DNA from: Platanthera guangdongensis
Taxonomy: Eukaryota; Streptophyta; Magnoliopsida; Asparagales; Orchidaceae
DNA length: 64,000 nucleotides
Direction: 5' to 3'
Assembly (NCBI GenBank): GCA_039583875.1
Contig: CM077159.1
Location: forward strand, 2,192,812 to 2,256,811
The first letter of the stretch is position 1. Each line of letters starts with the position of its first letter. The notes below the pieces were generated by a model. That model ran no database searches. It was given only the letters and a program-made list of their open reading frames with translations, and was not told where the DNA came from. This document shows, in pieces, positions 10,127 to 39,431 of this stretch. The position numbers and the translations under genes are program-made.

Positions 10127-11846
10127 TGTAACACCCCAAAACAAAAAGGAGCGACGGGGGACATTTTGGGCCAATTTTGATTTCTGGCTGCAGGCACATG
10201 GCCTGGGACACGGGCGTGTCCCAGGGGTGTCAAGCTTGTGTCGACACTGAGCCGGGAGTCGGCACTTTGGTCTCGACATTGTGTCGAGACTGGGCACACG
10301 GCCTGCGACACGGGTGTGTCGCAGGGCGTGTCGACCCATGTCGACACTTAGCCCGCGAAGTCGACACTCTGAGTTCGACGAAGTGTCGAGACATGGCATA
10401 CGGCCTGCAACACGGGCGTGTCGCATGGCATGTCAGCCCGTGTCGACACTCGTCCCGGGAGTCGACACTTTGGTCTCGACATTATGTCGAGACAAGGTAC
10501 ACGGCCTAGGACACGGGCGTGTCCAAGGCCGTGTCATCAGGTCGACGATCTTCGCTCGACAAAGTGTCGAGTGTCGAGACCGTGTACACGGCCTGGAGCC
10601 CAGGCCTATCAAGGTGACACGGGCAAGGACACGGGCGTGTCCTAGAACCCGTGCAGTTCTCGGGTTGTTTTCAGGGAAAAATGATGGGGGTACACGGCCG
10701 GCCACACGACCGTGTCAGGTGGAACACGGGCGTGTCAGGTCGAACACGGGCGTGTTCGATACCCGTGTGTTGTTCCAGGAGAGTCAATTTTGACGGAGAA
10801 TGAGGCACACGGCCATGGACACGGGCGTGTGCCAGGCCGTGTTCGGTCCAGATTGGGCATTTCAGTCCCGAATCAAAGCCGTTCATTTCTTTAATTGATG
10901 ATCCAACGGCTGGGGGTTGTTCCTGAAGGGATATACCCGGGATTGGACTTGGAAACCCTCACTTTTCATAAGTTATCATCTTTCTAAAACCTTAGAGAGA
11001 GAGGAGAGCCAAGGAAGGAAGAAGGAGCTAGATCCGGCCATTGGAGGAGCTTCGAAGCTCCAAATCGCGAGCCGACTCCAGATCCACGGAGGCAAAGCTA
11101 GTGCGGTGCTTTTCATCCGCTTACTTTTCCATGGCGCCAAAGAGGAACGCTAGGGTAACGATTCTCTTCTTGAGCATGAGTAGCTCTCCTTCTTTGCATA
11201 GGAAGCCCGCTCTCGCGAGTTTGCGGAGAGTTGGAGGCGTTCCTTCGGGTAGATATGTGAAGTCCCCGTTGTTTAGAGTCCGTAAGCGAGAACGGACATA
11301 GGCATGATGTGTGAAGCCTACCCGGACATGTTGGTCTGGATCGGTGATGTTGCATTGCATAAATGCCGGAGAAGACTCCGTGCTATGGATTATTTTTCGG
11401 GTTTTCTACGCGGTATATTGCAGCAGGGTGCCTTGGGGACTAACCCAAAGGTGCACCCGGAAAACTGGGCGGATGTGAGATCTTGCCAACTTGGTGGCCT
11501 GAGAGACAACTTGAACATAACCGGCTTATGTGAATTGTGATGGAAATGGGACTCGGTGGAAGTTTGACCCGCGCAAATGACTTAAATTGTCGTTGTGATG
11601 TGAGCACGGGTTAGATGGAACCGTACCCGTTCTATGTCGTTCGGTTAAAGAGACCTAAGGGTACGTGGCACTTACCGTTGGCATAGATTAGGGTCTTCGG
11701 CGGTCAATGGCTTAAATTGTCATGACCCAGGCCAGGAAGATAAATTGCTCATAGGTTTGGCCGTCAAAGTGGCGGTGGTGAGTCCGGAATGTCTATGGCT
11801 TTAATTGACGTGACATCGACTGGTTCACCGAGAATGTGCCCTGAGA
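10127..11846 (+). repeat. 5' LTR of element B, 3' end deleted
   Basis: Starts TGTAACACCCC. U3 (10196-10850) is packed with ACACGGGCGTGT palindromes, alternating with GTCTCGACA/TGTCGAGAC and CTCGACGAAGTGTCGAG hairpins. A TATA-like GATATA lies at 10930-10935. It follows the 3' LTR (14754 onward) until GAGA at 11843-11846, where pol sequence begins. About 590 bp of LTR tail is absent. Confidence 0.9.
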
Positions 11847-14758
11847 TAGATTTTACGATCGAGCTAGTGCCAGGTGCAAAGCCTGTGTCACGATCTCCTT
11901 ATCGGCTAGCGCCTAAGGAAATGGCAGAGCTGAAAGTTCAACTGCAAGAGTTGTTGGAGCAAGGGTATGTGCGCCCGAGTTCTTCGCCTTGGAGCGCACC
12001 GGTCCTCTTTGTTAAGAAGAAAGACGGAAGGTTGAGGCTATGTATTGATTATCGGGAGCTCAACAAGTTGACTGATAAGAACAAGTACCCAATTCCCCGG
12101 ATTGATGATCTTTTTGATCAGTTAGTCAGGTCGACGGTGTACTCGAAGTTGGATCTCAAGGCTGGGTACTATCAGCTGCGAATAAGGGAGAGTGATATCC
12201 CGAAGACAGCGTTTAGTACGAGATACGGGCATTATGAGTTTATGGTCATGCCGTTTGGGCTGACTAATTGTCCGTCAGTGTTCATGGATTTGATGAACAT
12301 GACTTTCAGGGAGTACTTGGACCATTTTGTGATCGTCTTCATCGAAGATATTTTGGTGTACTCGCAAAGTGAGGAAGATCACTTCAAGCATCTTCATTTG
12401 GTGTTGGAGACGCTAAGGAGAAATCAGTTGTATGCCAAGTTCTCGAAGTGCGAGTTTTGGCTATCCTCAGTGGCATTCCTTGGGCATATAGTGAGTGGAG
12501 AGGGTATTGTTATGGATCCGGCGAAGATCGTTGTGATACGGGAGTGGCCTGAGCTTGTTACGGTAGAGGAAGTCCGGAGTTTTCTGGGGCTTGCCGGCTA
12601 TTATAGGCGCTCTGTAGAGAACTTCTCGCGGATAGCTTTTCCTCTCACTACTTTGACGAGGAAGGAGCATAAGTTCGTTTGGACGTCGGATTGCGCGCGA
12701 GCTTTTGAGGAGTTGAAGTGTCGGTAGACCACGACGCCTGTGCTGAGTTCGCCATGTGGGACCAAAGGCTATGAGATTTATAGCGATGCTTCGGGCAGCG
12801 GTTTGGGTTGCGTGCTACTGCAACATGGAAGTGTAATAGCTTATGGCTCGAGACAGCTAAAAGTGCACGAGAGGAATTATCCGGTCCATGACTTGGAGTT
12901 AGCGGCCGTGATTTTTTCCTTGAAGCTGTGGAGACACTATTTGTACGATGTGAAGATTGATATCTACACCGATCATAAGAGCCTGAAGTATCTTATTGAT
13001 CATATGGATCTGAATATGCGGCAGCGTAGATGGATGGAGTTCCTGGGGGACTATACATTCAAGATCCACTACGTGCCTGGTAAAGGGAATGCAGTTGCGG
13101 ACGCGTTGAGTCGCCGAGCCCCAGCTCAAGCCAATTGGCTATCGGTGCATGATGAGCGGTTGGTGATGGAGTTGGAGGCGTTGGAGATTGTTTGTGTGAA
13201 TAGACAATCAAGTGCTGAAGCAGTTCTGAATTGGACTGAAGTCCAATATGACCTGGCTGATCGGATTCGGCAGGCTTTGGATATGGATGTTCATATGAAG
13301 CAGTTCATGGTAGAGGCTCTGGATAGGTCAAATTCCTAATTCGCCGTGGAGGACGGATTACTTTGGAAAGACGGTCGTCTGTGCGTCCCAAGTGTGGGCG
13401 ATTTACGGGTGGGGTTGTTGTACGAGGCACACCATACCAAGTACTCGATTCACCCGGGGAGCACGAAGATGTACCGTGATGTGAAGAAGCTGTTTTGGTG
13501 GCCGGGTTTGAAGAAGGATGTTGCGCTATACGTAGCGAAGTGCCAAACTTGCTCCTTGGTAAAGGCGGAGTGCCAAAAGCCGGGAGGATTTCTCAAGTCC
13601 TTGCCTATTCCGGAGTGGAAATTTGACGACATCTCTATGGACTTTGTGCACGGTTTGCCAAGGTCGTAAAAGGGGAACGACACCATTTGGGTGGTTGTTG
13701 ATCGGTTAACGAAGGTGTCGCATTTTATTCCGCATAGGAAGGATGATCCAGTGGAGAAGTTGGCAAAGCTTTATGTGGATAACATAGTACGGCTTCATGG
13801 TGTGCCACACAGCATTGTGAGTGACCGAGATGGGCGGTTCACGTCCAATGATTGGAGGCTAGTGCAACAAATGTTGGGAACAAAGTTGAAATTCAGCACA
13901 GCCTTCCATCCGCAAACGGATGGGCAGACCGAGAGGGTCAATAGAACCATGGAAGACATGCTTCGAATGTGTGTCTTGGATTTTGGAAAGCAATGGGAAG
14001 ACCACCTTTATCTGGTGGAGTTTGCATACAACAATAGCTACCAAGCGAGCATTCAGATGGTGCCTTTCGAGGCCCTATATGGTAGAAAATGTCGCACGCC
14101 GTTGTCTTGGTTAGAAACGGGTGAGTCAAAGTTGTATAAGCAATCTGAAGTGGAGGATGCTACTTCTTTGGTGAGAACCATTCGGGAGAGGTTGCTTATC
14201 GCTCAGGACCGGCAAGCAAAGTACTATAATGCCAAGCACAGGAACGTGGAGTTCGCTGTGGGCGATTATGTATACTTAAAGATCAAGCCGTTCAAGGGTG
14301 TCTCGCGGCTGCGGCGATTGAAAAAGCTAAGCCCGAGGTACCTTGGGCCGTTTGAGGTCCTGGAGCGAGTCGGTGAAGCGGCCTATAGGTTGAAGCTTTC
14401 AGTGGAGCTTAGTGGTTTACATGATGTATTACATATTTCGGTACTTCGGAAGGCGGTGCAAGAGCCTAAGCAAGTGATCGCTGTCGATCAAGTGTCGGTG
14501 GATAGTGGGCTGACGACAAAGGTCAAGCCCGTGCAGATTGAGGACTCGGAGGTCAAGCGGCTACGCAATAAAGAGATCAGGATGGTCAAGGTCCGGTGGG
14601 ACAATTGCGGTCGTGAGGAGCTCTCTTGGGAGAGAGAGCAGACTATACTTGACGAATATCCGGAGTTGTTCCGCTCAGGTACAAATTTTGGTTTTGTACA
14701 TGTCTTTCCTTTATATAATTTCGAGGACGAAATTCTTTTAAGAGGGGGAGAGTTGTAA
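11847..14758 (+). pseudogene. pol: Tekay pol (RT-RNase H-integrase-chromodomain) of element B, three nonsense codons
   Basis: One continuous frame broken by stops at 12725-12727, 13337-13339 and 13667-13669; the open frame upstream (from 11789) is LTR fused to RT. RT is recognisable ([35 protein letters not shown]), but the active-site box reads FIEDILVYS instead of FIDD, losing a catalytic Asp. RNase H starts at [11 protein letters not shown] and keeps YTDHKSLKY. Integrase has the HHCC finger (HHTKYSIHPGS ... CQTCSLVKAEC), D (SMDFVHGLP), D ([10 protein letters not shown]) and E ([12 protein letters not shown]). The C-terminus ([17 protein letters not shown] ... YPELF) is the chromodomain-like end of Tekay elements. 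The last two stops are CAA to TAA relative to element G. Confidence 0.92.
14739..14753 (+). promoter_or_regulatory. Polypurine tract of element B
   Basis: Purine-rich aagagggggagagt lies directly before the 3' LTR TG at 14754. It is the plus-strand DNA primer and is identical in form at 46266-46279 in element G. Confidence 0.88.
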
Positions 14759-17017
14759 CGCCCCGAAACTCAAAGGAGTGACGGGGGACGTTTTGGGCCA
14801 GTTTTAGGTTCTAGCTGCAGGTACACGGCCTGGGACACGGGCGTGTCCCAGGGCATGTCAAGCTTGTGTCGACACTGAGTCGGGAGTCGACACTTTGGTC
14901 TCGACATTGTGTCGAGACTGGGCACACGGCCTGCGACACGGGCATGTTGCAGGGCGTGTCGACCCGTGTCGACACTTAGCCCGCGAAGTCGACACTCTGA
15001 GTTCGACGAAGTGTCGAGTCATGGCACACGGCCTGCGACACGGGCGTGTCAGCCCGTGTCGACACACGTCTCGGGAGTCGACACTTTGGTCTCGACATTG
15101 TGTCGAGACAAGGTACACGACCTAGGACACAGGCATGTCCAAGGCCGTGTCATTAGGTCGACGATCTTCGCTCAACGAAGTGTCGAGTGTCGAGACCGTG
15201 TACACGACTTGGAGCCCAGGCATGTCAAGGTGACACGGGCAAGGACACGGGCGTGTCCTAGAACCCGTGCAGTGCTCGGGTTGTTTTCGGGGAAAAATGA
15301 TGGGGGTACACGGCCAGCCACACGGCCATGTCAGGTGGAACACGGGCATGTCAGGTCGAACACGAGCGTTTTCGATACCCGTGTGTTGTTCCAGGCGAGT
15401 CGATTTTGACGGCGAATGAGGCACACGGCCCTGGACACGGGCGTGTGCCAGGCTGTGTTTGGTACAGATTGGGCATTTCAGTCCCGAATCAAAGCCGTTC
15501 ATATCTTTAATTGATGATCCAACGGCTGGGGGTTGTTCCTGAAGGGATATACACAGGATTGGACTTGGAAACCCTCACTTTTCATAAGTTATCATCTTTC
15601 TAAAACCTTAGAGAGAGAGGAGAGCCAAGGAAGGAAGAAGGATCTAGATCCGGCCATTGGAGGAGCTTCGAAGCTCCAAATCGCGAGCCGACTCCGGATC
15701 TACGGAGGCAAAGCTAGTGCGGTGCTTTTCATCCGCTTACTTTTCCATGGCGCCAAAGAGGAATGCTAGGGTAACGATTCTCTTCTTGAGCATGAGTAGC
15801 TCTCCTTCTTTGCATAGGAAGCCCGCTCTCGCGAGTTTGCGGAGAGTTGGAGGCGTTCCTTCGGGTAGATATGTGAAATCCCCGTTGTTTAGAGTCCATA
15901 AGCGAGAATGGACATAGGCATGATGTGTGAAGCCTACCCGGACATGTTGGTCTGGATCGGTGATGTTTCATTGCATAAATGCCGGAGAAGACTCCGTGCT
16001 ATGGATTGTTTTTCGGGTTTTCTAACCCAAAGGTGCACTCGGAAAACTGGGCGGATGCGAGATCTTGCCAACTTGGTGGCCTGAGAGGCAACTTGAACAT
16101 AACCGGGTTATGTGAATTGTGATGGAAATGGGACTCGGTGGAAGTTTGACCCGCGCAAATGGCTTAAATTGTCATTGCGATGTGAGCACGGGTTAGATGG
16201 AACCGTACCCGTTCTATGTTATTCGGTTAAAGAGACCTATGGGTACGTGGCACTTACCGTTGGCATAGATTAGGGTCTTCGGCAGTCAATGGCTTAAATT
16301 GTCATGACCCAAGCCAGGAAGACAAATTGCTCATAGGTTTGGCCGTCAAAGTGGCGGTGGTGAGTCCGGAATGTCTATGGATTTAATTGACGTGACATCG
16401 ACTGGTTCACCAAGAATGTGCCCTGAGAGCATGGGGCGTGTGGTCGTGCGAGCCAACGTCTGTGATGAAATGATTATGGTTATCTATTGCTCGCTTATGC
16501 TAATGAAATGCAGGGAAGGAGCATCGCCGCCCCGAGTTGGGGGCAGGATCGTTATAATTTGGTCAGCATTGCTGACCGTTGCCTTATTTTGCCACCGTGC
16601 GGTGGTTTGTTGCTTGCAGGTGCTGCTGGAACAAGCGGTCAATAGCGGGCTAAAGCCCAAGTGTGAAGCCGGCCCTCGAAGACCTAATTAGAAGTGTTTA
16701 CTGTTTTATTCATGTATGATCGGCCTGCGTGCCGTCGTTTGTAAATCATGTAATATCAAGTGAAACATTTTGTAAGGCCTTAAGGCTTATGTTGGTACTT
16801 GTATAACATTCCTATTTTGGATTAGTGGACATTCATGCTTTAGTGCTGTGTTCTTATTTGCAACTTTTATAAACTGCTTCCGCTAGAATGCTCTGTGTAG
16901 GACGATGATTGGTTGGATGGTTTCCATGAGTAACCACCCGGTCTGTCTGTGGCATACGACGTCGGGCCCCGGCCGGACTTACTGCTATATGTTATGTGAC
17001 GGGTAGGGGGTGTTACA
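14754..17017 (+). repeat. 3' LTR of element B (2264 bp)
   Basis: TGTAACGCCCC at 14754 to GTGTTACA at 17017. Same palindrome-rich U3 (14826-15460) and TATA-like GATATA near 15547. Relative to the 5' LTR and element G, it lacks about 40 bp near 16022 (between ttttct and aaccc). The two LTRs also differ by many substitutions, so the insertion is not recent. Confidence 0.93.
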
Positions 17018-21296: not shown

Positions 21297-23610
21297 TGTA
21301 ACTCCCCGAAACTCAAAGGAGCGACGAGGGACGTTTTGGGCCAGTTTTGGGTTCTGGCTGCAGGCACACGGCCTGGGACACGAGCGTGTCCCAGGGCGTG
21401 TCAAGCTTGTGTCGACACTCAGCCGGGAAGTCGACACTTTGGTCTCGACATTGTGTCGAGACTGGGCACACGGCCTGCGACACGGGCGTGTCGCAGGGCG
21501 TGTCGACCCGTGTCGACACTTAGCCCGCGAAGTCGACACTCCGCGTTCGACGAAGTGTCGAGACATGGCACACGGCCTACGACATGGGCGTGTCGTAGGG
21601 CTTGTCAACCCGTGTCGACACTCGTCTCGGGAAGTCGACAATTTGCTCGACGATGTGTCGAGACAAGGCACACGGCCTAGGACACGGGCGTGTTCAAGGC
21701 CGTGTCATTAGGTCGACGATCTTCGCTCGACGAAGTGTCGAGTGTCGAGACGGTGTACATGGTCTGGGCCCCAGGCGTGTTGAGGTGACACGGGCAAGGA
21801 CACGGGCGTGTCCTAGAACCCGTGCAGTGCTCGGGTTGTTTTCAGGGAAAAATGATGGGGGTACACGGCCGGCCACATGACCGTGTCAGCTGGAACACGG
21901 GCGTGTCAGCTCGAACACGGGCATGTTCGATACCCGTGTGTTGTTCCAGGCGAGCCGATTTTGACGGCGAATGAGGCACACGGCCCTGGACACGGGCATG
22001 TGCCAGGCCGTGTGCGGTCCAGATTGGGCATTTCAGTCCCGAATCGAAGCCGTTAATTTCTTTAATTGATGATCCAACGGCTGGGGGTTGTTCCTGAAGG
22101 GATATACCCCGGATTGGACTTAGAAACCCTCACTTTTCATGTGTGGATATCTTTCTAAAAGCTTAGAGAGAGAGGAGAGCAAATGAAGGAAGAAGGAGCT
22201 AGATCCGGCCATTGCAGGAGCTTCGAAGCTCCAAATCACGAGCCGACTCCGGATCCACGGAGGAAAAGCTAGTGCGGTGATTTTCATCCGCTTACTTTTT
22301 CATGGCGCCAAAGAGGATGCTAGGGTAACGATTCTCTTCTTGAGCATGAGTAGCTCTCCTTCTTTGCATAGGATGCCCGCTCTCGCGAGTTTGCGGAGAG
22401 TTGGAGGCGTTCCTTCGGGTAGATATGTGAAGTTCCCGTTGTTTAGAGTCCGTGAGCGAGAACGGATATAGGCATGATGTGTGAAGCCTACCCGGACATG
22501 TTGGTCTGGATCGGTGATGTTGCATTGCATAAATGCCGGAGAAGACTCCGTGCTATTGATTGTTTTTCGGGTTTTCTACGCGGTAGATTGCAGCAGGGAG
22601 CCTTGGGGATTAACCCAAAGGTGCACCCGAAAAATAGGGCGGATGCAAGATCTTGCCAACTTGGTGGCCTGAGAGCCAACTTGAACATAACCGGGTTATG
22701 TGAATTGTGATGGAAATGGGACTCAGTGGAAGTTTGACCCGCGCAAATGGCTTAAATTGTCGTTGCGATGTGAGCACGGGTTAGATGGAAACGTACCCGT
22801 TCTATGTCATTCGGTTAAAGAGACCTAAGGGTACGTGGCACTTGTTGTTGGCATAGATTAGGTTCTTCGGCGGTCAATGGCTTAAATTGTCGTGACCCAG
22901 GCCAGGAAGACAAAATTCTCATAGGTTTGGCCGTCAAAGTGGCGGTGGTGAGTCCGGAATGTCTATGGCTTTAATTGACGTGACATCGACCGGTTCACCG
23001 AGAATGTGCCCTGAGAGCACGGGGCGTGTGGCCGTGCGAGCCAACGTCTGTGATGAAATGGCTATATATATATATATTGCTCGCTTATGCTAATGAAATA
23101 CAGGGAAGGAGCATCGTCGCCCCGAGTTGGGGGCGGGATCGTTATAATTTGGTCAGCATTGCTGACCGTTGCCTTGTTTTGCCACCGTGCGGTGGTTTGT
23201 TGCTTGCAGGTGCTGCTGCACCAAGCAGTCAATAGCGGGCTAAAGCCCTTTTTGCGAAGCCGGCCCTCGAAGGCCCAATTGGAAGTGTTTACTGTTTTAT
23301 TCATGTATGACCGGCCTGCGTGCCGTGGTTTGTAAATCATGTAATATCGAGTGAAACATTTTGTAAGGCCTTAAGGCTTGTGTTGGTATTTGTATAACAT
23401 TCATATTTTGTATTAGTGGACATTTGTGCTTTCGTGCTGGGTTCTTATTTGCAACTTTTATAAACGGCTTCCGCTAGAATGCTCTGTGTAGGACGTTATG
23501 ATTGGTTGGATGGTTTCCATGAGTAACCACCCGGTCTGTCTGTGGCATACGCCGTCGGGCCCCGCCCGGACCTACTGCTATATGCTATGCGACGGATATG
23601 GGGTGTTACA
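21297..23610 (+). repeat. 5' LTR of element G (2314 bp)
   Basis: TG at 21297, CA at 23610, adjacent to the PBS. The U3 palindrome block (21373-22010) repeats ACACGGGCGTGT, GTCTCGACA-TTG-TGTCGAGAC and CTCGACGA-type words. TATA-like GATATA is at 22101-22106. A TA dinucleotide run is near 23061. Same family as the LTRs of B. Confidence 0.95.
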
Positions 23611-23613
23611 ATT

Positions 23614-23630
23614 TGGTATCAGACTACTGG
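23614..23630 (+). promoter_or_regulatory. Primer-binding site of element G (initiator Met tRNA)
   Basis: TGGTATCAGACTACTGG starts three bases after the LTR end. The first ten bases match the tRNA-iMet 3' end. Confidence 0.88.
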
Positions 23631-23845: not shown

Positions 23846-24980
23846 GTGGTGTTGGGCCGTCAAGAACGCCGAGTTTCTGAGGCTAGCAGTGCACCAGATG
23901 TTGCTCCTGCAACACCTCTATCGGCTGAGAACATACGGTTGGTGGCTGAAGCGGTGTTGGCCGTGATAAATGCGCAGCCTGCAAGGCAAACGCAGCAGCC
24001 CGCTCCTGCGATGGAGCAAGAACCTCTTCAAGAGGCTGAGCCGAGGAGAGTGGAGCAAGTGGTTGTGGAACCGGTGGTGCCAAGGAGGGCAACTGAGAGG
24101 CAGCTTAAGCATGTAATGAGCTTTAACCCTCCGGTATTCTCGGGGTTTGGAACCCCATCTCAGGCTGAAGACTGGCTCTCCAGGGTGAAGAGAGTCATGA
24201 CAGTAACGGAGACGGAGGAGTGGCAAATGACCACCATCGCTACGTTCCTTCTAGACGGTGAAGCGAGAATGTGGTGGGAAGGATTGGAGCTGAACTTATT
24301 GAGAGGTAGGCAACTTGGTGATGTCTCGATGGAAGAGTTCTCGAGATTGTTCTTGGCTAGATACCTCCCTTCGACGTAGAAGATAGCGTTGGAGAACGAA
24401 TTTCTGAAATTGGTTCAGGGTGAGAGGAGCGTGGATGAATATCTCCACGAGTTTACTCGTCTGAGTCATTATGCTAGCTTTACCATCGTGGATGAGGAGC
24501 GCAAGACTAATCGCTTCTATGAAGGGTTGAGAGATGAGTTGAGGTTGCTACTCTCGGGGCCGATGACGCAGGGTTTCTTAACCTTGGTCAATACTGCCCG
24601 GTCCTTGGAGAAGGACATGAAGAATGTACAAGCAAATAAAAGCTTGGGTGAGAAGAAATCTGAATGCAAAGTGCCGACTACTTCAAAGTCCGGCTATCAG
24701 AGGACTTTCAAGAAGCATAGGACTTCGGGTCCAGCTCCTTCTGGTGCTTTTGGGGCGACTACGAGTCGGACCCCGGGCGCGTGTTTTACTTGTAGAAAGA
24801 CGGGACACTTTGCCCGTGACTGTTGGAGCGGACATCCTAAGTCCGAGAGAAGGCCGGGAGCGACTTATGAAGAGAAGGGCAAGGCGGTGGAGTCGACCGC
24901 ATCCCCCTATGCTCCGGCCCAACCGAGGGTCTATAATCTTGGCCAACAGGAGGCCATCAAACAGGCTGATGTGGTGACAG
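23846..24980 (+). pseudogene. gag: Tekay gag of element G, one internal stop
   Basis: Capsid-nucleocapsid gene. The retrotransposon gag domain is clear: FNPPVFSGFGTPSQAEDWL, then ARMWWEGLEL, FSRLFLARYLPST, then VDEYLHEFTRLSHYA and NRFYEGLRDELRLL. A single CCHC knuckle (CFTCRKTGHFARDC) lies near 24785-24826. An in-frame TAG at 24377-24379 interrupts it; the same frame resumes at once. No convincing ATG was found; the open frame begins by 23846. The last exon base is taken as 24980, the first base of a Gly codon, because of the candidate intron that follows. Read without splicing, the frame ends at TAA 24989-24991. Confidence 0.88.
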
Positions 24981-25056
24981 GTACGGTTTAATTTATAGCA
25001 AGTCAATTTCTTTAAATACTTATTATGCACATGTTACCTTACCACTGCTTGTTTAG
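24981..25056 (+). other. Candidate 76-nt spliceosomal intron between gag and protease of element G
   Basis: The donor is ACAG|GTACGG and the acceptor CTTGTTTAG|GA; the body is T/A-rich, and a YTNAY-like CTTAC lies near 25038-25042. Splicing joins gag and protease in one frame and rebuilds a Gly codon (G|GA, phase 1). Unspliced, gag stops at 24989-24991, and the protease frame is closed by TAG at 24996-24998, so the frames do not overlap. Element I has a candidate at the same codon and phase. No transcript evidence is available. Confidence 0.7.
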
Positions 25057-26096
25057 GATTTGTATTGATTTGTGAAAATCCGGCACGAGCACTCTTCGAT
25101 ACGGGAGCTTCACACTCCTTCTTGTCCGAAGGATTTATATCACGTATCGGAGTCCCTTCTTCGATGGTGAAGGATAAGTTGGATGTATTGTTGCCCAATG
25201 GGTGTTCGATGCGAGCGGATAGGATCTGCGATGTTAAGATTCGTATTGGGAATCAGGAGTTCGACCTGCAGGCGTCTTTACTTCCGTTGGTGGAGTGCGA
25301 CGTTATATTTGGCATGGACTAGCTCTCGGAGCAGCAGGCCTATATTGACTGCGGTCGTAAGGAAGTCAAGCTGGGAGCAAGTCGTGAGACGACTTTTACG
25401 GGCTTAAAGGGGTCGAGCAAGACATTGATGTCTGCTCTTCAGGTGGTGAAGGCGGTTCGTGACGGTGCAGAACTGTTCTTTACACTAGTAGAGGTTGCAA
25501 AGCCGAAGCCCGCGTTGGATTGTATTTTAGTGGTATCGGAATACCCTGATGTGTTCCCCGCAGATCTTCCTGAAGCCCCGCCTCAGCGGGAGATAGATTT
25601 TACGATCGAGCTAGTGCCAGGTGCAAAGCCTGTGTCACGATCTCCTTATCGGCTAGCGCCTAAGGAAATGACAGAGCTGAAAGTTCAACTGCAAGAGTTG
25701 TTGGAGCAAGGGTATGTGCGCCCGAGTTCTTCGCCTTGGAGCGCACCGGTCCTCTTTGTTAAGAAGAAGGATGGAAGCTTGAGGCTATGTATTGATTATA
25801 TGGAGCTCAACAAGTTGACGGAGAAGAACAAGTACCCGATCCCCCGGATTGATGATCTTTTCAATCAGTTAGTCGGGTCGACGGTGTACTCGAAGTTGGA
25901 TCTCAAGGCTGGGTACTATCAGCTGCGAATAAGGGAGAGTGATATCCCGAAGACAGCGTTTAATACGAGATATGGGAATTATGAGTTTACGGTCATGCCG
26001 TTTGGGCTGACTAATGCGCCGTCAGTGTTCATGGATTTGATGAACAGGACTTTCAGGGAGTACTTGGACCATTTCATGATCGTCTTCATCGACGAT
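25057..26096 (+). pseudogene. pol: Protease and N-terminal RT of element G, interrupted by element H
   Basis: The protease has the retropepsin motif ALFDTGASHSF (about 25089-25121) and the partner segment DVIFGMD. A TAG at 25320-25322 follows, where Tekay proteases have Trp. The same frame continues into [31 protein letters not shown] (where the family has YRELNK), [12 protein letters not shown] and [12 protein letters not shown]. It stops at VFIDD because element H is inserted immediately after the second catalytic Asp codon. RT resumes at 43876 with ILVYS. Confidence 0.92.
26092..26096. other. Left target-site duplication of element H (acgat)
   Basis: ACGAT ends the FIDD coding segment and recurs at 43871-43875, just before ATTTTGGTG. 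Confidence 0.93.
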
Positions 26097-27306
26097 TGTA
26101 CAACACTGTATTCGCGAATAGTGGGCCCCAGATGAGGCGTGCTTAGTTTTTAAGCTTTTTGAGTATTTTGAACTCTCGGTGGCCAATTTTGGCTCTAGCT
26201 TGGAAACATACTAGTAGGGGGAGGAGAAATCGGCCTCCCCCAGCGGCCCCATAGTTGGAGTGTGAAAGCAGCAGGTTGGTAGGCACCCGCCCGGGCCATT
26301 TGGGTGTGGAGGCGGGATCAGCAGGCCCTCCCCCTCCCCATTTTTTTCCCTCAGGCCGGCGGGACCGGCCCCGTGCCCGGCGAGTAGGCCGGGCGAGACC
26401 GGCCCCAGGCCGGGTCTCGCCCGGCCCCGCGGGCAGCCGGGCGAGACCGGCCCCAGGCCGGGTCTCGCCCAGCCCGGCGAGTAGGCCGGGCGAGACCGGC
26501 CCCAGGCCGGGTCTCGCCCCGCCCCGCGGGCAGCCGGGCGAGACCGGCCCCAGGCCTGGTCTCGCCCGCCCGGCGAGTAGGCCGGGCGAGCCCGGCCCAG
26601 GAGGCCGGGTCTCGCCCGAGACCGCCCAAGGCCGGGTCTCGCCCGAGACCGGCCCAAGGCCGGGTCTCGCCCAGCCCTGCGGGCAGCCGGGCGAGACCGG
26701 CCCCAGGCGGGTCTCGCCCAGCCCGGCGAGTAGGCCGGGCGAGACCGGCCCCAGGCCGGGTCTCGCCCAGCCCCGCGGGCAGCCGGCGAGACCGGCCCCA
26801 GGCCGGGTCTCGCCCCGCCCGGCGGGTAGGCCGAGCGAGACCGGCCCCCAGGCCGGGTCTCGCCCCGTCCCGCAGGGTGGGTCCCCTTTTAGCTTTGGGT
26901 GACGCATTTTTCCTTCTCTACTCCCCGGCGTGGCGGTTTCCTATTGGCCCGAGGCCTTTTGGCCGTGGGGGTATTTTGGTTATTTGTGGCCCATGGGATT
27001 TGGAAAACTATAAATAGACCCCCTTGGGTGCCTTGGAGGGGGGCCTTTTCTTAGCTTCCTCCTCCCTTAGCTTCTTCTTGGTAGAGTAGAAAGAGATCTC
27101 CAAGACGCCCAGCCTAGCCCTTTGGTAAGGGAGGGGAAGAGCTCAGGTAGCCTTCCGGGTGTGAGGTGGGACCTCCGTGCTAGAGCCGAGGGTCTGTTCA
27201 TAGTCTCCTAAGTCTCCGGTCCGTGACGTTCTCTCGAGTGTAGTAGGTGTGAGGTCACCCCTTTCAGGGACCCCGAACTCCACAGAGGTCAATTTTGGCT
27301 TCAACA
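26097..27306 (+). repeat. 5' LTR of element H (1210 bp)
   Basis: TG at 26097, CA at 27306. An extremely GC-rich block (26380-26870) repeats the inverted pair GGGCGAGACCGGCC ... GGCCGGGTCTCGCCC, separated by CGGCGAGTAGGC or CGCGGGCAGC linkers. TATAAATAG is at 27009-27017, about 140 bp downstream. The block's apparent long frames on both strands are by-products of repeat composition. Confidence 0.92.
27009..27017 (+). promoter_or_regulatory. TATA box of the element H LTR
   Basis: CTATAAATAG in an otherwise GC-rich context, duplicated in the 3' LTR at 43581-43589. A CT-rich leader follows. Confidence 0.75.
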
Positions 27307-29472: not shown

Positions 29473-29647
29473 GGTGCCTCGCCTTGCGGTAGTTTTTTCA
29501 TTTTTCTTGTCTTGTAACAAGTGTTACCCCTGACCAGCTGAGTCGGGGGGATCATGTAACCCATCTATTTCTCCCCGTTTGAGGATGTAGGATTTGGTAA
29601 GGATTGATTGAGATGCTTAGTTCTTTTGCTCTGAGACAGTCCCGCTG
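29473..29647 (+). other. 3' untranslated stretch of element H
   Basis: T-rich start, then gtaacaagtgttacccctgacc and similar. No domain is seen. It leads into the tandem array. Confidence 0.6.
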
Positions 29648-31370
29648 CCCAGGCTCTCACTAGCTGGGCAGGGCCGGTGGTACCTCTCATTGATGCCTAC
29701 TTGTCTCACCTCGAGATGGATTCCGATGTCAGGCTCTCACCTAGCTGGCAGGGCAGGTTGATCTCTCGGACGGTGGGAAGGTCTCACCTCGAGATGGATT
29801 CCGCTGTCAGGCTCTCACCTAGCTGGCAGGGCAGGTTGATCTCTCGGAGGGTGGGAAGGTCTCACCTCGGGATGGATTCCGCAGCCAGGCTCTCACGTAG
29901 CTGGCAGGGCAGGTTGATCTCTCGGAGGGTGGGAAGGTCTCACCTCGAGATGGATTCCACTGCCAGGCTCTCATCTAGCTGGCAGGGCAGGTTGATCTCT
30001 CGGAGGGTGGGAAGGTCTCACCTCGAGATGGATTCTGCTGCCAGGCTCTCACCTAGCTGGCTGGGCAGGTTGATCTCTCGGAGGGTGGGAAGGTCTCACC
30101 TCGTGATGGATTCCGTTGCCAGGCTCTCACCTACCTGGCAGGGCAGGTTGATCTCTCGGAGGGTGGGAAGGTCTCACCTCGAGATGGATTCCGCAGCCAG
30201 GCTCTCACCTAGATGGCAGGGCAGGTTGATCTCTCGGAGGGTGGGAAGGTCTCACCTCGAGATGGATTCCGCTGCCAGGCTCTCACCTAGCTGGCAGGGC
30301 AGGTTGATCTCTCGGAGGTTGGGAAGGTCTCACCTCGGGATGAATTCCGCTGCCAGGCTCTCACCTAGCTGGCAGGGCAGGTTGATCTCTCGGAGGGTGG
30401 GAAGGTCTCACCTCGGGATGGATTCCGCTGTCAGGCTCTCACCTAGCTGGCAGGGCAGGTTGATCTCTCGGAGGGTGGGAAGGTCTCACCTTGGGATGGA
30501 TTCCTCTGCCAGGCTCTCACCTAGCTGGCAGCGCAGGTTGATCTCTCGGAGGGTGGGAAGGTCTCACCTCGGGATGGATTCCGCTGTCAGGCTCTCACCT
30601 AACTGGCAGGGCAGGTTGATCTCTCGGAGGGTGGGAAGGTCTCACCTTGGGATGTATTCCGCTGCCAGGCCCTCACCTAGCTGGCAGGGCAGGTTGATAT
30701 CTCGGAGGGTGGGAAGGTCTCACCTCGAGATGGATTCCGCTGCTAGGCTCTCACCTAGCTGGCAGGGCAGGTTGATCTCTCGGAGGGTGGGAAGGTCTCA
30801 CCTCGGGATGGATTCCGCTGCCAGGCTCTCACCTAGCTGGCAGGGCAGGTTGATCTCTCGGAGGGTGGGAAGGTCTCACCTGGGGATGGATTCCGCTGTC
30901 AGGCTCTCACCTAGCTGGCAGGGCAGGTTGATCTCTCGGAGGGTGGGAAGGTCTCACCTCGGGATGGATTCCGCTGCCAGGCTCTCACCTAGCTGGCAGG
31001 GCAGGTTGATCTCTCGGAGGGTGGGAAGGTCTCACCTCGGGATGGATTCCGCTGCTAGACTCTAACCTAGCTGGCAGGAAAGGTCTCACCTCGGGATGGA
31101 TTCCACTGCCAGGCTCTCACCTAGCTGGCAGGGCAGGTTGATCTCTCGGAGGGTGGGGAGGTCTCACCTCGGGAAGGATTCTGCTGCCAGGCTCTCATCT
31201 AGCTGGCAGAGCAGGTTGATCTCTCGAGGATGCCAAGTCCTTAGCTCCGAGATGGATTCCGCTGTCAGGCTCTCATCTAGCTGGCAGGGCAGGTTGATCT
31301 CTCGTGGAAGCCAAGTCCTTAGCTCCGGGATGGATTCCGCTGCCAGGCTCTCATCTAGCTGGCAGGGCAG
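29648..31370 (+). repeat. 78-bp tandem array, 22 copies, in the 3' region of element H
   Basis: The anchor gatggattc(c/t) (variants gatgaattcc, gatgtattcc, gaaggattct) recurs at 29715 and every 78 bp to 31041 (18 copies), then at 31095 (a 54-bp unit with 24 bp lost), 31173, 31251 and 31329. A degenerate unit lies at 29648-29714. The last three units have a variant linker (ccaagtccttagctcc). Because 78 is a multiple of three and the unit lacks stops in one frame, an apparent 462-codon frame spans 29677-31065; a 26-residue peptide repeat of that kind is unlikely to be a protein. Confidence 0.97.
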
Positions 31371-31511
31371 GTCGAGCCCGGCGAGTAGGCGGGCGAGACC
31401 GGCCTCAGGCTGGGTCTCGCCCCTCCCCGCGGGCAGCCGGGCGAGACCGACCCCAGGCCGGGTCTCGCCCAGCCCGGCGAGTAGGCCGGGCGAGACCGGC
31501 CCCAGGCCGGG
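31371..31511 (+). repeat. Left part of the truncated 3' LTR of element H
   Basis: From gagcccggcgagtaggc onward it matches the palindrome block of the 5' LTR. The LTR start and PPT are missing. It ends with the TSD ccggg (31507-31511), where element I begins. Confidence 0.85.
31507..31511. other. Left target-site duplication of element I (ccggg)
   Basis: CCGGG recurs at 43250-43254. Confidence 0.88.
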
Positions 31512-34756: not shown

Positions 34757-37497
34757 TCAGGGAAACAGATGAGGGTGAGCCTCCCTCATAGCCGACTCCA
34801 ACTCCCAAGTCGCGCTTTCTACATCCTGATTCTTCCATAAAACTTTAACCATCGGAATAGACTTCTTCCGCAGCGCACGAACCTGAGAATCTAGAATGCG
34901 GACAGGCACCTCCACATAAGAAAGATTCAGCTCCAACTGAGGCACAAAATCCAAAACCTGCCTGCCATTCGATACACATTTCCGCAGCTGACTGACGTGG
35001 AAGACGTTATGCACGCCAGGGAAGTTTGCGGGCAACGCCAGCCTATAAGCTGATATCCCAATCCGCTCAACAATCGGAAACGGCCCCACGAACCTCGGGT
35101 CCAACTTCCTGTTCTTGCCAAAACGCTTGACTCCGATCAACGGGGAGACCTTTAAGAACACTGAGTCCCCCACCAAAAATTCCAAATCCGATCTACGCCG
35201 ATTGGCATTTTTCTCATATCTCTCCTGGGCTATCCGAAGCTTTTCCCGAATAAGCTTCACAGCAGTTTCCATCTCCTCGAGTGCTTCTGGACCCAACAAA
35301 GGTCTCTCGCCAACCTCAACCCAAAACAAGGGAGTCCTGCAGCGCCTCCCATACAAAGCTTCAAAGAGCCATTTGCAAGCTTTCTTGATAACTGTTATTA
35401 TACGCAAATTCCATAAGCCGCAAGCGCTCATCCCACGCTCCTCCGTGCTCCAGAACATAGCATCGGATCATATCTTCCACAATCTGATTTACTCGCTCCG
35501 TCTGACCATTGGTCTGGGGATGATAAGCTGTGGAATATCTCAAATCTGTACCCAACCCTTCTTGAAGGCTCTTCCAAAAACGAGACGTAAACCTGGAGTC
35601 TCGATCTGATATGATACTCACGGGTACACCATGCAATCTAATAACCTCATCCAAATACAGCTCGGCTATCTTCCTCATCGGATAATCGATCTTAAAAGGT
35701 ACGAAGTGAGCACTCTTCGTCAATCTGTCTACGATCACCCAAACTGAATCATGCCCTTTAGGAGATCTCGGTAGGCCTGTAATGAAATCCATCGAGATAC
35801 TCTCCCACTTCCACATCGGAATCTCTAAGGGAGTTAGCTTGCCACCAGGCCTCCCATGGTCGGCCTTCACACGCCTGCAAGTGAAGCATTCAGAAACAAA
35901 TCTGGCTACGTCCTTCTTCATCCCATACCACCACGCAATCTGCTTTAAATCATGATACATTTTGGTAGACCCTGGATGGTAGGCAACACTAGATCCGTGG
36001 GCTTCTCTGCACACCATATTCCGGATATCTCCAACTGCGGGAATGCAAAACCTGCCACGATACTTCAAGGTACCCGCATCATCTATAGAGAAATCTGGTA
36101 ATTCACCTTTCTCAGCTCGAAGGTACAAATGCAAAAGATCGGGATCATCTTTCTGATGCAGTCGCGTAAGCGCAATCCACGAAGGTTCTGCCACTGCCAA
36201 GCTACTCTGCGAATCGCAGCTTCCCACTGAAATGTCCATCAAAAGAAACTCTTCCACGAGACGCTCGGCGGAGAGATTGAAAATCTTTCCTGACTTCCGA
36301 CTTAGGGCATCGGCCACCACATTCGCCTTACCCGGATGATACTGGATTTCAACATCATAGTCGGCCACGTACTCCAACCACCGCCGCTGGCGCAGATTCA
36401 ACTCTTTCTGAGTGAAGACATATTTCAAACTCTTATGATCCGTGAAAATCTTGCACTGCGCGCCATACAGCAAATGCCTCCACAATTTCAACGCATAGAT
36501 CACAGCTGCAAACTCCAGGTCATGTGTAGGGTAATTCCTCTCATGAGTCTTTAGCTGCCTCGACCCGTACGCAATCACCTTCCCGCCCTGCATCAAAACG
36601 CAGCCCAGTCCGACGTGCGACGCGTCCACATATATATCATACTCACTATCTTCAGTAGGCAAAGACAAAACTGGAGCTGAACACAACCTTCTTTTTAATT
36701 CCTCAAAAGCCTCCTCACACTTGCCATCCCATATGAAGGCTGCATTCTTCTGCGTCAACCTGGTCAACGGCGCAGACAAAGTAGAGAATCCCTCTACAAA
36801 TCTCCTATAATATCCAGCCAAGCCCAAGAAGCTTCTGATCTCTTTGGGAGTAACAGGCCTCGCCCATTCCATAACAGCAGCGATCTTTTCTGGGTCCACC
36901 GATATTCCCTCCTTATTCACCACGTGGCCGAGAAAAGAAACTTGAGGCAACCAAAATTCGCACTTGTTCAGCTTGGCGTATAGCTTATGGTCTCTCAGAG
37001 TCGCCAAGACCAGTCGCAAATGCCGATCATGCTCCTCCGCATCTTTAGAATACACCAAAACATCGTCTATAAAGACAATCACAAACTTATCCAGGAAGTC
37101 CTTGAAAACTCTATTCATCAGATCCATAAAAGCTGAGGGCGCATTAGTCAAACCAAATGACATAACTAAAAACTCAAAATGCCCATGACGAGAGCGGAAC
37201 GCCGTCCGCGGAACATCTGACTCCCGAATCCTCAACTGGTGATAGCCCGAACGAAGATCTATCTTGGAAAACACGGCACTACCACGCAGTTGGTCAAACA
37301 GATCGTCAATCCGAGGCAAAGGGTACCTGTTCTTAATAGTAACCTTGTTCAGTTCCCTATAGTCGATGCATAGCCTCATCGACCCATCCTTCTTTTTAAC
37401 GAACAGCACTGGAGCACCCCATGGTGAAGAACTCGGCCTAATGAACCCTTTTGCCAACATCTCATCCAGCTGAATTTGCAGCTCTTCCAGCTCTCGC
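34757..37497 (-). pseudogene. pol: RT-RNase H-integrase-chromodomain of element I, one internal frameshift
   Basis: From about 37497 to 35361 one long frame encodes RT ([41 protein letters not shown], active box [11 protein letters not shown] intact), RNase H ([33 protein letters not shown]) and integrase ([15 protein letters not shown] ... [12 protein letters not shown] in [10 protein letters not shown] in [11 protein letters not shown] in [12 protein letters not shown]). Near 35370, after [13 protein letters not shown], the frame shifts. The rest, [15 protein letters not shown] through VGPFPIVERIG to the chromodomain-like VRALRKKSIPMVKVLWK ... HPHLFP, lies in a second frame ending with TGA at 34757-34759. 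Catalytic residues are all present; the shift separates only the integrase C-terminus. Confidence 0.93.
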
Positions 37498-38112
37498 GGG
37501 CCATCCGGTACGGCGCCTTGGCAATAGGACGCGTGCCTGGCTCCAAATCTATAGCAAACTCGACATCTCGATCGGGTGGAAGACCGGGAAGATCATCAGG
37601 AAACACATCAGAGAAGTCACACACCACAGGGATCTCTTGCAAACACGGCACTCTAACAACAGCCCCTACCAAAGAGACCACACAGGCAGAACAACCAGAA
37701 TCAAGCAACTTCCGAGCACGCACCGCAGAAATGACTGGAGACTCCTGGAGAGAATACCCATAAACGCTCCCTGGCTGACCGTTGTCCTTGACGAAGTCCA
37801 AGCGCTTACCCTTGCACTGGATCACAGCATCGTACCTTGACAACCAGTCCATGCCCAAGATAACATCGAAGTCCTCCAGGTCAATCACCTTCAGATCTGC
37901 CTTGGCTAGAAAATCCCCCAACAAGATCGGACAATCAAGGACACCCAGGTCCGTAACCACAGAGTCACCGGAGGGGAACTTAACGCAAAATGCACCACCA
38001 ACACGATCTAGGCCCAAACTGCACCGCTCCACGAAGGCTCTAGCCACAAACGAGTGGGTAGCGCCTGAATCGAAGAGAACCCGCGCCCAGCGGTTCTTTC
38101 CCTTAAATCGTC
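37497..38112 (-). CDS. pol: Protease of element I, frameshifted at its junction with RT
   Basis: Retropepsin-type aspartic protease that would cut the polyprotein. The active site [13 protein letters not shown] is near 38035-38073 and the partner motif [12 protein letters not shown] follows. The linker before RT reads [20 protein letters not shown]. At about 37498-37500 one base appears lost from a short C-run on the coding strand, so the frame runs into noise while RT continues in another frame. The first codon is split by the candidate intron (38113-38206). Unspliced, an in-frame ATG exists at 38131, inside the candidate intron. Confidence 0.88.
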
Positions 38113-38206
38113 CTACAAATAGCGCACGCATCTAAGGAAACAAACGCTAAAACGAAAACTACAACCACAAAGGGAGCATAACGAAACGACTGAGGAGAAA
38201 TCAAAC
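38113..38206 (-). other. Candidate 94-nt spliceosomal intron between gag and protease of element I
   Basis: Sense strand: donor ATCTCAG|GTTTGA, acceptor GCTATTTGTAG|GACG, T-rich body. Splicing rebuilds a Gly codon (G|GA, phase 1) and joins AQVIS-G-RFKGKN, so gag and protease become one frame. This is the same codon and phase as element G. Unlike in G, the unspliced frames overlap by 29 bases (38103-38131), so a ribosomal frameshift is a competing explanation here. Confidence 0.62.
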
Positions 38207-39431
38207 CTGAGATAACCTGGGCCGAAGTCTGCGCTTCGTCTGCCGAAAGCACATTCAGCTTCCCCTTTCCTCTATCCAATTGCTGAGGTGGTGGCAAAGC
38301 CTGGAGGGGTACTGGCTGCAAAATAGGCTGGGACTGTGGGCACTTTGTCTTGAGATGCCCCTTCTGCCCACACTGAAAACAGACTTTATCCCTCGACCAG
38401 CAACGGGCAGCCTCATGCCCCTTCCTTCCACACAAGGCACACACCAAGTCTCCTCTGGGAGCACCCTGAATTGCGTGCACCTGATCCTTCTTCTGCGCTC
38501 CAAACCTTTTGAAACACTTCTCAAAGGGGTGGCCTGGTCGGCCACAGAAACTACAAACCTCTTTGCTCTTCTTTCTCGAGACCGCGTCGGGTTCCTGAGG
38601 GCTCTTCCCTCCACCGGACTTTCGCTTATCCTTCCACAACTGCTGACCTCTATTCTTGGCATTCTCAATGGCCTCAACCCTCAAGGCAGCTTCGACCACG
38701 CTGGCATAACTGACTGCACCGTAGGCATTCGCTAACTGCTGAATGTCGCTTCTTAGTCCACCCAGAAATCGCTTAACTCGGTCTGCTTCAACACTCACCA
38801 GACCAGGAGCAAACCGACTCAACTTACTGAACTCAATCTCATACTCACTGACTGTGAGTTTCCTCTGCTTCAAATGGAGAAAGTCATTCATCAGCCGGTC
38901 CCTCTCGACTGAAGGCAAAAACTTACTCAACAGCATCCCTTTAAATGACTCCCAAGAGCATCCTGCCACCAAGCTCTCCTTCTCCCTCAACCACCAATTC
39001 TTTGCTAAGCCCTTGAGCTGGTAGGCAGCGAGCATCACTCTCTGATCATCCGAAATCCCCGAATAAGAGAACATCTCCTCAATAGTAATCAGCCAGTCAT
39101 CCAAAATCATGAAATATGCTTGCCCATCATAAGTAGGGGGTCTCAGTCGCTGAAACTGGGATATAAATGCCATCTCCGGGGGCACCACAACCAAAGGCAC
39201 GGGAGGAGCAGGAGGGGCAGGAACAGCTACCCCCTCAGCGGGGTCCGGAACTCTCGGGGCCTGTCCCGCCACCACGGCCACCAGGGACTGAATCTGAGCC
39301 TGCATAGCCACCACCTGCCTCGATAAGGTCTCATTACTCTGCCGCAGGTTTTCTACCAACGCCTCGCTCTGCGCTCCTGATGTCTCACCCTCGGATTGGG
39401 GGGTCGACCTCGTTGCAGGACGTCTCGCCAT
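38207..39431 (-). CDS. gag: Gag of element I with three CCHC zinc knuckles
   Basis: Intact open frame from ATG 39431 (MARRPATRSTPQSEGETSG); the open frame upstream of it has no ATG. A coiled-coil-like stretch (LRQSNETLSRQVVAMQAQI) precedes a Pro/Val/Ala-rich linker. The gag domain follows (FQRLRPPTYDGQ, LAKNWWLREKES, FLPSVERDRLMNDFLHLKQR, FSKLSRFAPGLV). Three knuckles occur in series: CSFCGRPGHPFEKC, CALCGRKGHEAARC and CFQCGQKGHLKTKC; element G has one. Unspliced, the frame reads on into the candidate intron to TAA at 38103-38105. Confidence 0.92.

Follow-up and report, generated by a model that had tools for sequence, protein, structure and literature searches.

The stretch of DNA analysed here (64,000 nucleotides of contig CM077159.1 of the orchid Platanthera guangdongensis, hereafter the window) contains two plant Ty3/gypsy elements, designated G and I, each of which carries a short GT-AG segment between its gag and protease sequences. 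The relevant features, in window positions, are the following.

23604..23625, plus strand: end of the 5' LTR of G (..TGTTACA) and, beside it, the stretch TGGTATCAG.., which we take to be the primer binding site (from sequence)
24380..24980, plus strand: 3' part of G gag, upstream exon (from frames; Pfam Retrotrans_gag, zf-CCHC)
24981..25056, plus strand: putative G intron, 76-nt GT-AG, phase 1 (GT 24981-24982, AG 25055-25056; borders exact)
25038..25042, plus strand: CTTAC, a yUnAy match and candidate branch point, 19 nt from the end of the G intron to the start of the motif
25057..25319, plus strand: G protease exon (RVP_2), starting GATTTG... (open frame, Pfam)
37376..38112, minus strand: I protease exon and start of pol (RVP_2), frame open to 37376 (frame, Pfam)
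38113..38206, minus strand: putative I intron, 94-nt GT-AG, phase 1, in the same codon as in G (GT 38206-38205, AG 38114-38113)
38207..39431, minus strand: I gag, upstream exon, from Met to the first base of the Gly codon (VIS-G) (Pfam Retrotrans_gag, zf-CCHC)

Pfam domains for gag, zinc knuckle, RVP_2 protease, RT, RNase H and integrase could be identified, in pieces, in both elements. In addition, a Chromo domain was detected in I (E 1.1e-5), and none was found in the G pol frames searched. Short upstream pieces gave no Pfam match on their own. The CTTAC in the G segment is named as a candidate on the assumption that yUnAy is a branch-point-like motif.

The window copy of G is dead, with in-frame stops at 24377-24379 and 25320-25322 and a transposon-like end at 26104. 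The insertion that starts at this last position breaks the RT and has a CACTG end; it is probably a transposon of the CACTA type, and a single occurrence of its 22-base end motif was found. G pol appears to resume near 43.7 kb, past the insertion. A G-family copy at 10254-16904 seemingly runs from LTR-like sequence straight into pol, and is uninformative on the intron because gag and protease look deleted there. The window also holds, at 29625-31460, 78-bp direct repeats (21 overlapping register copies, core 92–96% alike) inside long open frames.

The upstream exon of G ends in ...GTGACAG, of which the last base is the first base of a conserved Gly codon (VVT-G). A TAA at 24989-24991 closes the gag frame, and the protease frame opens only past a TAG at 24996-24998. 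The two frames therefore do not overlap and no single frameshift can join them, as the sequence-only reading of this DNA had stated for G. In the window copy, the G protease frame has no Met ahead of the DTG motif. That reading had also placed a GT-AG segment at the homologous Gly, in the same phase and between parted frames, in both families; codon and phase are indeed shared, but the frames are parted in G only, since those of I overlap from 38131 to 38103. The I protease frame has a TAG followed immediately by an ATG at 38131, inside the putative intron, which is a candidate alternative translation start. With this overlap and this ATG, the frames alone do not decide against frameshifting or reinitiation in I. 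Without splicing, the intron would add 2 residues to Gag in G, and in I, where the unspliced frame crosses the intron, 33 mostly hydrophobic residues; given these different lengths, the tail is probably incidental. The 5' site of the I intron (GTTTGA) is weak-looking, and no yUnAy motif is present near its 3' end.

Several observations identify the segment as an interruption of one conserved domain. A profile was built from 58 homologues, selected from the best 120 of 1,820 relatives of the I protease (E up to 0.001) for a clear active site with at least 35 residues ahead of it; these are predicted proteins, mostly from plants where named, and their gene models may conceal predicted introns. 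In 51 of the 58, in which gag and protease are continuous, a Gly lies exactly 14 residues ahead of the catalytic Asp. The gag-frame piece of G matches the profile with 9.0 bits and that of I with only 1.5 bits, both alignments reaching the Gly and extending a further two or three residues within the segment. On the other side, the protease-frame piece of G starts at the conserved Gly column, and that of I is aligned from column 30, six columns past the Gly, in register. The pieces from both sides thus meet in register, which means that the segment splits one conserved domain and that its excision leaves no gap. Exact removal restores both the frame and the canonical protein spacing in G and in I. 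Among the excisions that give the canonical length and an open frame, only one of 20 in G and one of 49 in I is GT-AG, and these two lie at an identical offset, 10 nt past the start of the VxxG codons; the GT-AG positions in G and I exceed chance. The T content of the segments is 0.42 (G) and 0.49 (I), compared to 0.20–0.31 in the flanking 300 nt. A length of 76–94 nt is plausible for a plant intron, judged by the minimum length of plant introns.

The genome (4.25 Gb in 274 contigs) contains many copies with the segment. It was present in all 30 fetched G copies (GT in 30, AG in 29) and in all 30 fetched I copies (GT and AG in 30; 94 nt long in 29 and 96 in one), the copies being the most similar ones rather than a random sample (30 of 40 scored in each family, from 8,706 candidates for G and 3,114 for I). 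A 34-mer spanning the exon-intron border was found, at up to 3 mismatches, at 10,638 places for G and 559 for I, with no hits for the reversed control patterns. Divergence was 0.020–0.031 in the intron body, 0.062–0.087 at third codon positions, 0 at the GT, and 0 and 0.01 at the AG; this comparison with the exons does not decide the matter, as the first 19 intron bases were part of the pattern that drew 20 of the 50 copies, and the exons may carry more methylated sites than the intron body.

If a retroelement contains an intron, reverse transcription of its spliced RNA is expected to give rise occasionally to intron-less genomic copies. Both families do have copies in which precisely the predicted segment is absent at the predicted junction; this supports the earlier proposal that its removal restores a single gag-protease frame. 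The exon-exon 34-mer of G was found at 29 places exactly, at 49 with at most one and at 125 with at most three mismatches; 100 of the 125 were listed, and 15 of these carry a variant represented by L120 (G000:C4:52829222-52829955), an intron-less relative of G that is about 15% diverged and perhaps belongs to an old intron-less sublineage. For I the numbers were 20 exact, 35 at one, 47 at two and 92 at three mismatches or fewer, of which the last plainly includes other families and the 47 may include some. The reversed patterns again gave none in either family. Of the 29 G places with the exact junction and no intron, 20 were examined in the stretch about 1.1–1.6 kb upstream: the leader aligned in all 20 and the LTR side in 19, the exception being L157, which has other sequence there. 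Nineteen of the 20 show the exact primer-site motif, and L150, which lacks it, aligns through the site. With leader and LTR end kept, these intron-less G copies are LTR elements at the end examined, and they look like reverse transcripts of spliced RNA.

Tree analysis distinguishes the two families. For G, two sets of copies were compared with the intron columns omitted. The 28 intron-bearing ones comprise 8 similar to the window copy and 20 that the exon-intron 34-mer picked out on contig C1; the 20 intron-less ones are L120 and 19 copies that have the exact junction. The resulting tree requires 13 changes of intron state, at least 6 of which are forced by starred branches, albeit that the tree is shallow, its bootstrap unsettled and two of its rows long. 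Copies of like intron state do not clearly group together (63 and 66 of 500 shuffles were as low). Mean identity, computed from 18 of the 20 drawn copies and 19 of the 20 intron-less ones (L130, L139 and L120 dropped, the 8 similar copies excluded), is 0.938 within the intron-bearing group, 0.943 within the intron-less group and 0.940 between them; the within-minus-between difference of 0.0006 was reached in 184 of 1000 permutations, so that intron state is not linked to similarity. The scatter of intron-less G copies over the tree is as predicted by repeated loss through spliced RNA. The sequence-only reading had counted uninterrupted copies as evidence against an intron; in G they point the opposite way, as they are scattered among intron-bearing ones. 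Recombination between co-packaged RNAs could have spread the intron-less state in G and inflated the count of losses. In a third family, B1 (see below), three intron-less copies lie among eight intron-bearing ones, and two of them, L081 and L082, are 98.9% and 98.7% identical outside the insert to the intron-bearing L072.

The picture in I differs. The sampled intron-bearing copies form one young clade, and most of the 20 intron-less copies fall outside it. A tree with the 30 similar intron-bearing copies requires 1 change, found in 59% of 200 bootstrap trees, and a second tree, with 12 of those 30 and 3 copies drawn by the 34-mer, requires 2. Identity is 0.985 within the intron-bearing group (33 copies) against 0.930 within the intron-less group (20 copies); the 3 copies drawn by the 34-mer alone, the only ones sampled regardless of similarity, have an identity of 0.984. 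With a young intron-bearing clade among older intron-less copies, most intron-less copies of I do not prove splicing. Two of them, L177 and L178, are 98.6–98.8% identical to intron-bearing copies and look like intron losses. Read plainly, these trees would mean that I gained its intron recently, that a burst of copies ensued and that the intron was then lost once or twice. This does not support the old, conserved intron that had been suggested from the window, nor do the inserts of four families, which lack convincing likeness (see below).

We propose, with a probability of about 0.9, that the segment is a short spliceosomal intron (GT-AG, U-rich, phase 1), and that unspliced RNA would yield Gag and spliced RNA Gag-Pol. 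Exact excision at GT-AG before reverse transcription is the work of the spliceosome, which would thus be the agent here. When the intron is retained, translation would end inside it (G) or just past it (I), giving Gag; when it is spliced out, gag and protease-pol would lie in one frame, giving Gag-Pol. The unspliced RNA would be both the usual genomic RNA and the Gag message, and the degree of retention would set the ratio of Gag to Gag-Pol. The presence of intron-bearing and intron-less copies in one genome suggests that both RNAs exist. Occasionally spliced RNA would be packaged, primed and reverse-transcribed into an intron-less copy, and the proportion of intron-less G places (roughly 1%, 125 versus 10,638) would reflect how rarely this happens.

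Other explanations are improbable to different degrees. The best of them, which we consider unlikely, holds that the intron-less copies are ancestral and that the segment is a recent insertion, its bearers being a defective or differently expressed derivative for which no splicing is needed. This agrees with the young intron-bearing clade among older intron-less copies sampled in I, with the mostly continuous form of related predicted proteins, and with the existence of two groups of I-like elements, R and E, without the intron. It does not account for G and B1, in which the intron-less copies sit among the intron-bearing ones, nor for the far greater abundance of the intron-bearing form, which must therefore replicate: 10,638 versus 125 places in G, both at up to 3 mismatches, and 559 (up to 3) versus 47 (up to 2) in I. 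Moreover, the protease frame of unspliced G would have no Met ahead of its active site. A smaller chance is given to deletion of the segment at the DNA level, by short-homology repair or unequal exchange between the AGGs that are found at both borders in G and in I; these would suffice for a short-homology deletion, but a homology of three bases is expected to yield mostly other deletions, and the exact event would have to recur in at least G and B1, always at the GT-AG. Least credible of all is that gag and pol are joined in translation by frameshifting, readthrough, ribosome hopping or reinitiation: the overlap and the ATG-initiated protease frame would permit frameshifting or reinitiation in I, but G has separate frames and lacks a Met ahead of the DTG, and in both families copies without exactly the segment are left unexplained, for which reasons this mechanism was rejected.

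The spliceosomal intron that we propose for G and I has counterparts in other families of the same genome. A genome search with the RVP_2 profile gave 98,709 candidates, of which 150 were scored. The matches start either at profile position 3–6 or at 21–23 and never in between (98 and 52, respectively, by hand count). Twelve of 14 fetched matches starting at 21–23 contain a 79-nt GT-AG insert and constitute family B1, and one has an insert of 84 nt, also GT-AG (family C); the B1 and C inserts occupy the same codon, in the same phase, as those of G and I. In L066, a further one of the 14 and of the B1 type, unrelated AT-rich sequence takes the place of the gag side and reaches to the last intron bases. 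By contrast, the 26 fetched matches starting at 3–6 have one frame through the site, a few with stops. Among these intron-less matches, L081, L082 and L085 are B1 members; L087, L096 and L099 resemble C, with 88, 87 and 74% identity to L069 outside the insert. The R group (L076, L078, L079, L083, L088, L090 and L093) and the E group (L080, L084, L089, L091, L094 and L100) are intron-less in the sample, which comes from a profile search that favours intron-less copies; each forms its own clade. For some matches of the R and E kind the open frame exceeds 1400 residues, so this one genome has single-frame and intron-bearing forms side by side.

The inserts of G, I, B1 and C show no convincing likeness to each other. 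In local alignments of one copy each (six pairs), the best pair was G-C, for which 10 of 300 shuffles scored as high, followed by I-C (24 of 300); for the other pairs 98–204 of 300 did so. A protein tree of 23 rows from this genome and 20 chosen from the 58 homologues places G apart from the I-like clade with moderate support (82/88), and intron-less relatives lie near each. At the 0.05 level, AU tests did not reject a tree in which G is forced together with the I-like clade (p 0.068), or one to which the intron-less neighbours of G are added (p 0.262), the groups having been named after the tree was seen. Together with the lack of convincing likeness between inserts, these values make parallel gain as possible as a single ancestral intron.

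Proteins from relatives give further indications. A Gag protein of Platanthera zijinensis, 76% identical to that of G, shares the ending VVTGTV, so that the G intron probably predates the species from which the window comes. The Gag proteins P0123, P0126 and P0127 end at VISG, P0124 runs into other sequence and P0133 ends in VIAGSGQSQ; from the proteins alone, these suggest introns in relatives. Two gene models of P. zijinensis, P0125 and P0128, have gag and protease joined precisely at VISG. They were dropped as evidence of splicing, since they may be intron-less copies or contain drawn introns.

Splicing in plant LTR retrotransposons has been described for other lineages. In Ogre elements, also Ty3/gypsy, an intron lies between two ORFs and is spliced out of only a part of the transcripts (PMC6317226, in the portion available to us). 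The parting of ORFs by an intron is shared with G and I, where partial splicing would be expected from the DNA. However, according to the same portion of that paper the Ogre region follows the protease and averages 274 bp, whereas the segments of G and I measure 76–94 nt and lie between gag and protease; Ogre is moreover a non-chromovirus lineage, and the chromodomain found in I points to a different one. An Ogre-type arrangement, with the intron between protease and RT, was rejected for G and I on grounds of position. EVADE, BARE1 and other Ty1/copia elements produce a spliced short GAG RNA (available parts of PMC12786077 and PMC7730604), and splicing separates Gag-coding from Gag-Pol-coding RNA in these as it would in G and I. 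There, however, splicing removes pol to give the Gag RNA and the full-length RNA encodes Gag-Pol, so that the logic predicted for G and I is inverted; classification with these elements was rejected, as removal of the segment here joins gag to protease. Bianca, a Ty1/copia element, shares with G and I a gap between two ORFs, of about 172 bp on average, but belongs to another superfamily, and splicing of this gap is not mentioned in the available portion of PMC6317226. In other plants, as in the R, E, L075 and L077 groups of this genome, continuous Gag-Pro proteins have the domain order of G and I, but in one frame and with no intron at the site; the VxxG-14-Asp spacing of G and I is shared by the above 51 predicted proteins and by the intron-less relatives examined in this genome.

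A review of December 2025 describes plant LTR retrotransposons as generally without introns, with Ogre and EVADE as exceptions (PMC12786077, available part). The available portion of PMC6317226 covers the Ogre intron and the Bianca gap and describes no intron in Tekay, the lineage to which the sequence-only reading had assigned G and I, and such an intron is likewise absent from the available parts of PMC3605345, PMC11963269, PMC9289625 and PMC11282089. In the literature searched, which includes a minority of subscription papers, we found no gag-protease intron described for chromoviruses, Tekay among them.

For the biology of these elements, we tentatively consider, at somewhat less than even odds, that the codon at the gag-protease border is a hot spot at which introns have been gained repeatedly (separately in G, I, B1 and C) and lost by retrotransposition of spliced RNA. 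If so, each gain would turn a single-frame element into one that makes Gag from unspliced and Gag-Pol from spliced RNA, and the intron of I would have been gained so recently that intron-less kin still surround its intron-bearing copies. In G, with over ten thousand intron-bearing boundaries, the proposed intron would lie at a different place from those exceptions and follow a splicing logic opposite to that of EVADE, offering one way for a chromovirus-like element to produce Gag in excess of Pol. Finally, with thousands of copies in which the intron can be scored as present or absent, intron gain and loss could be measured here rather than reconstructed.
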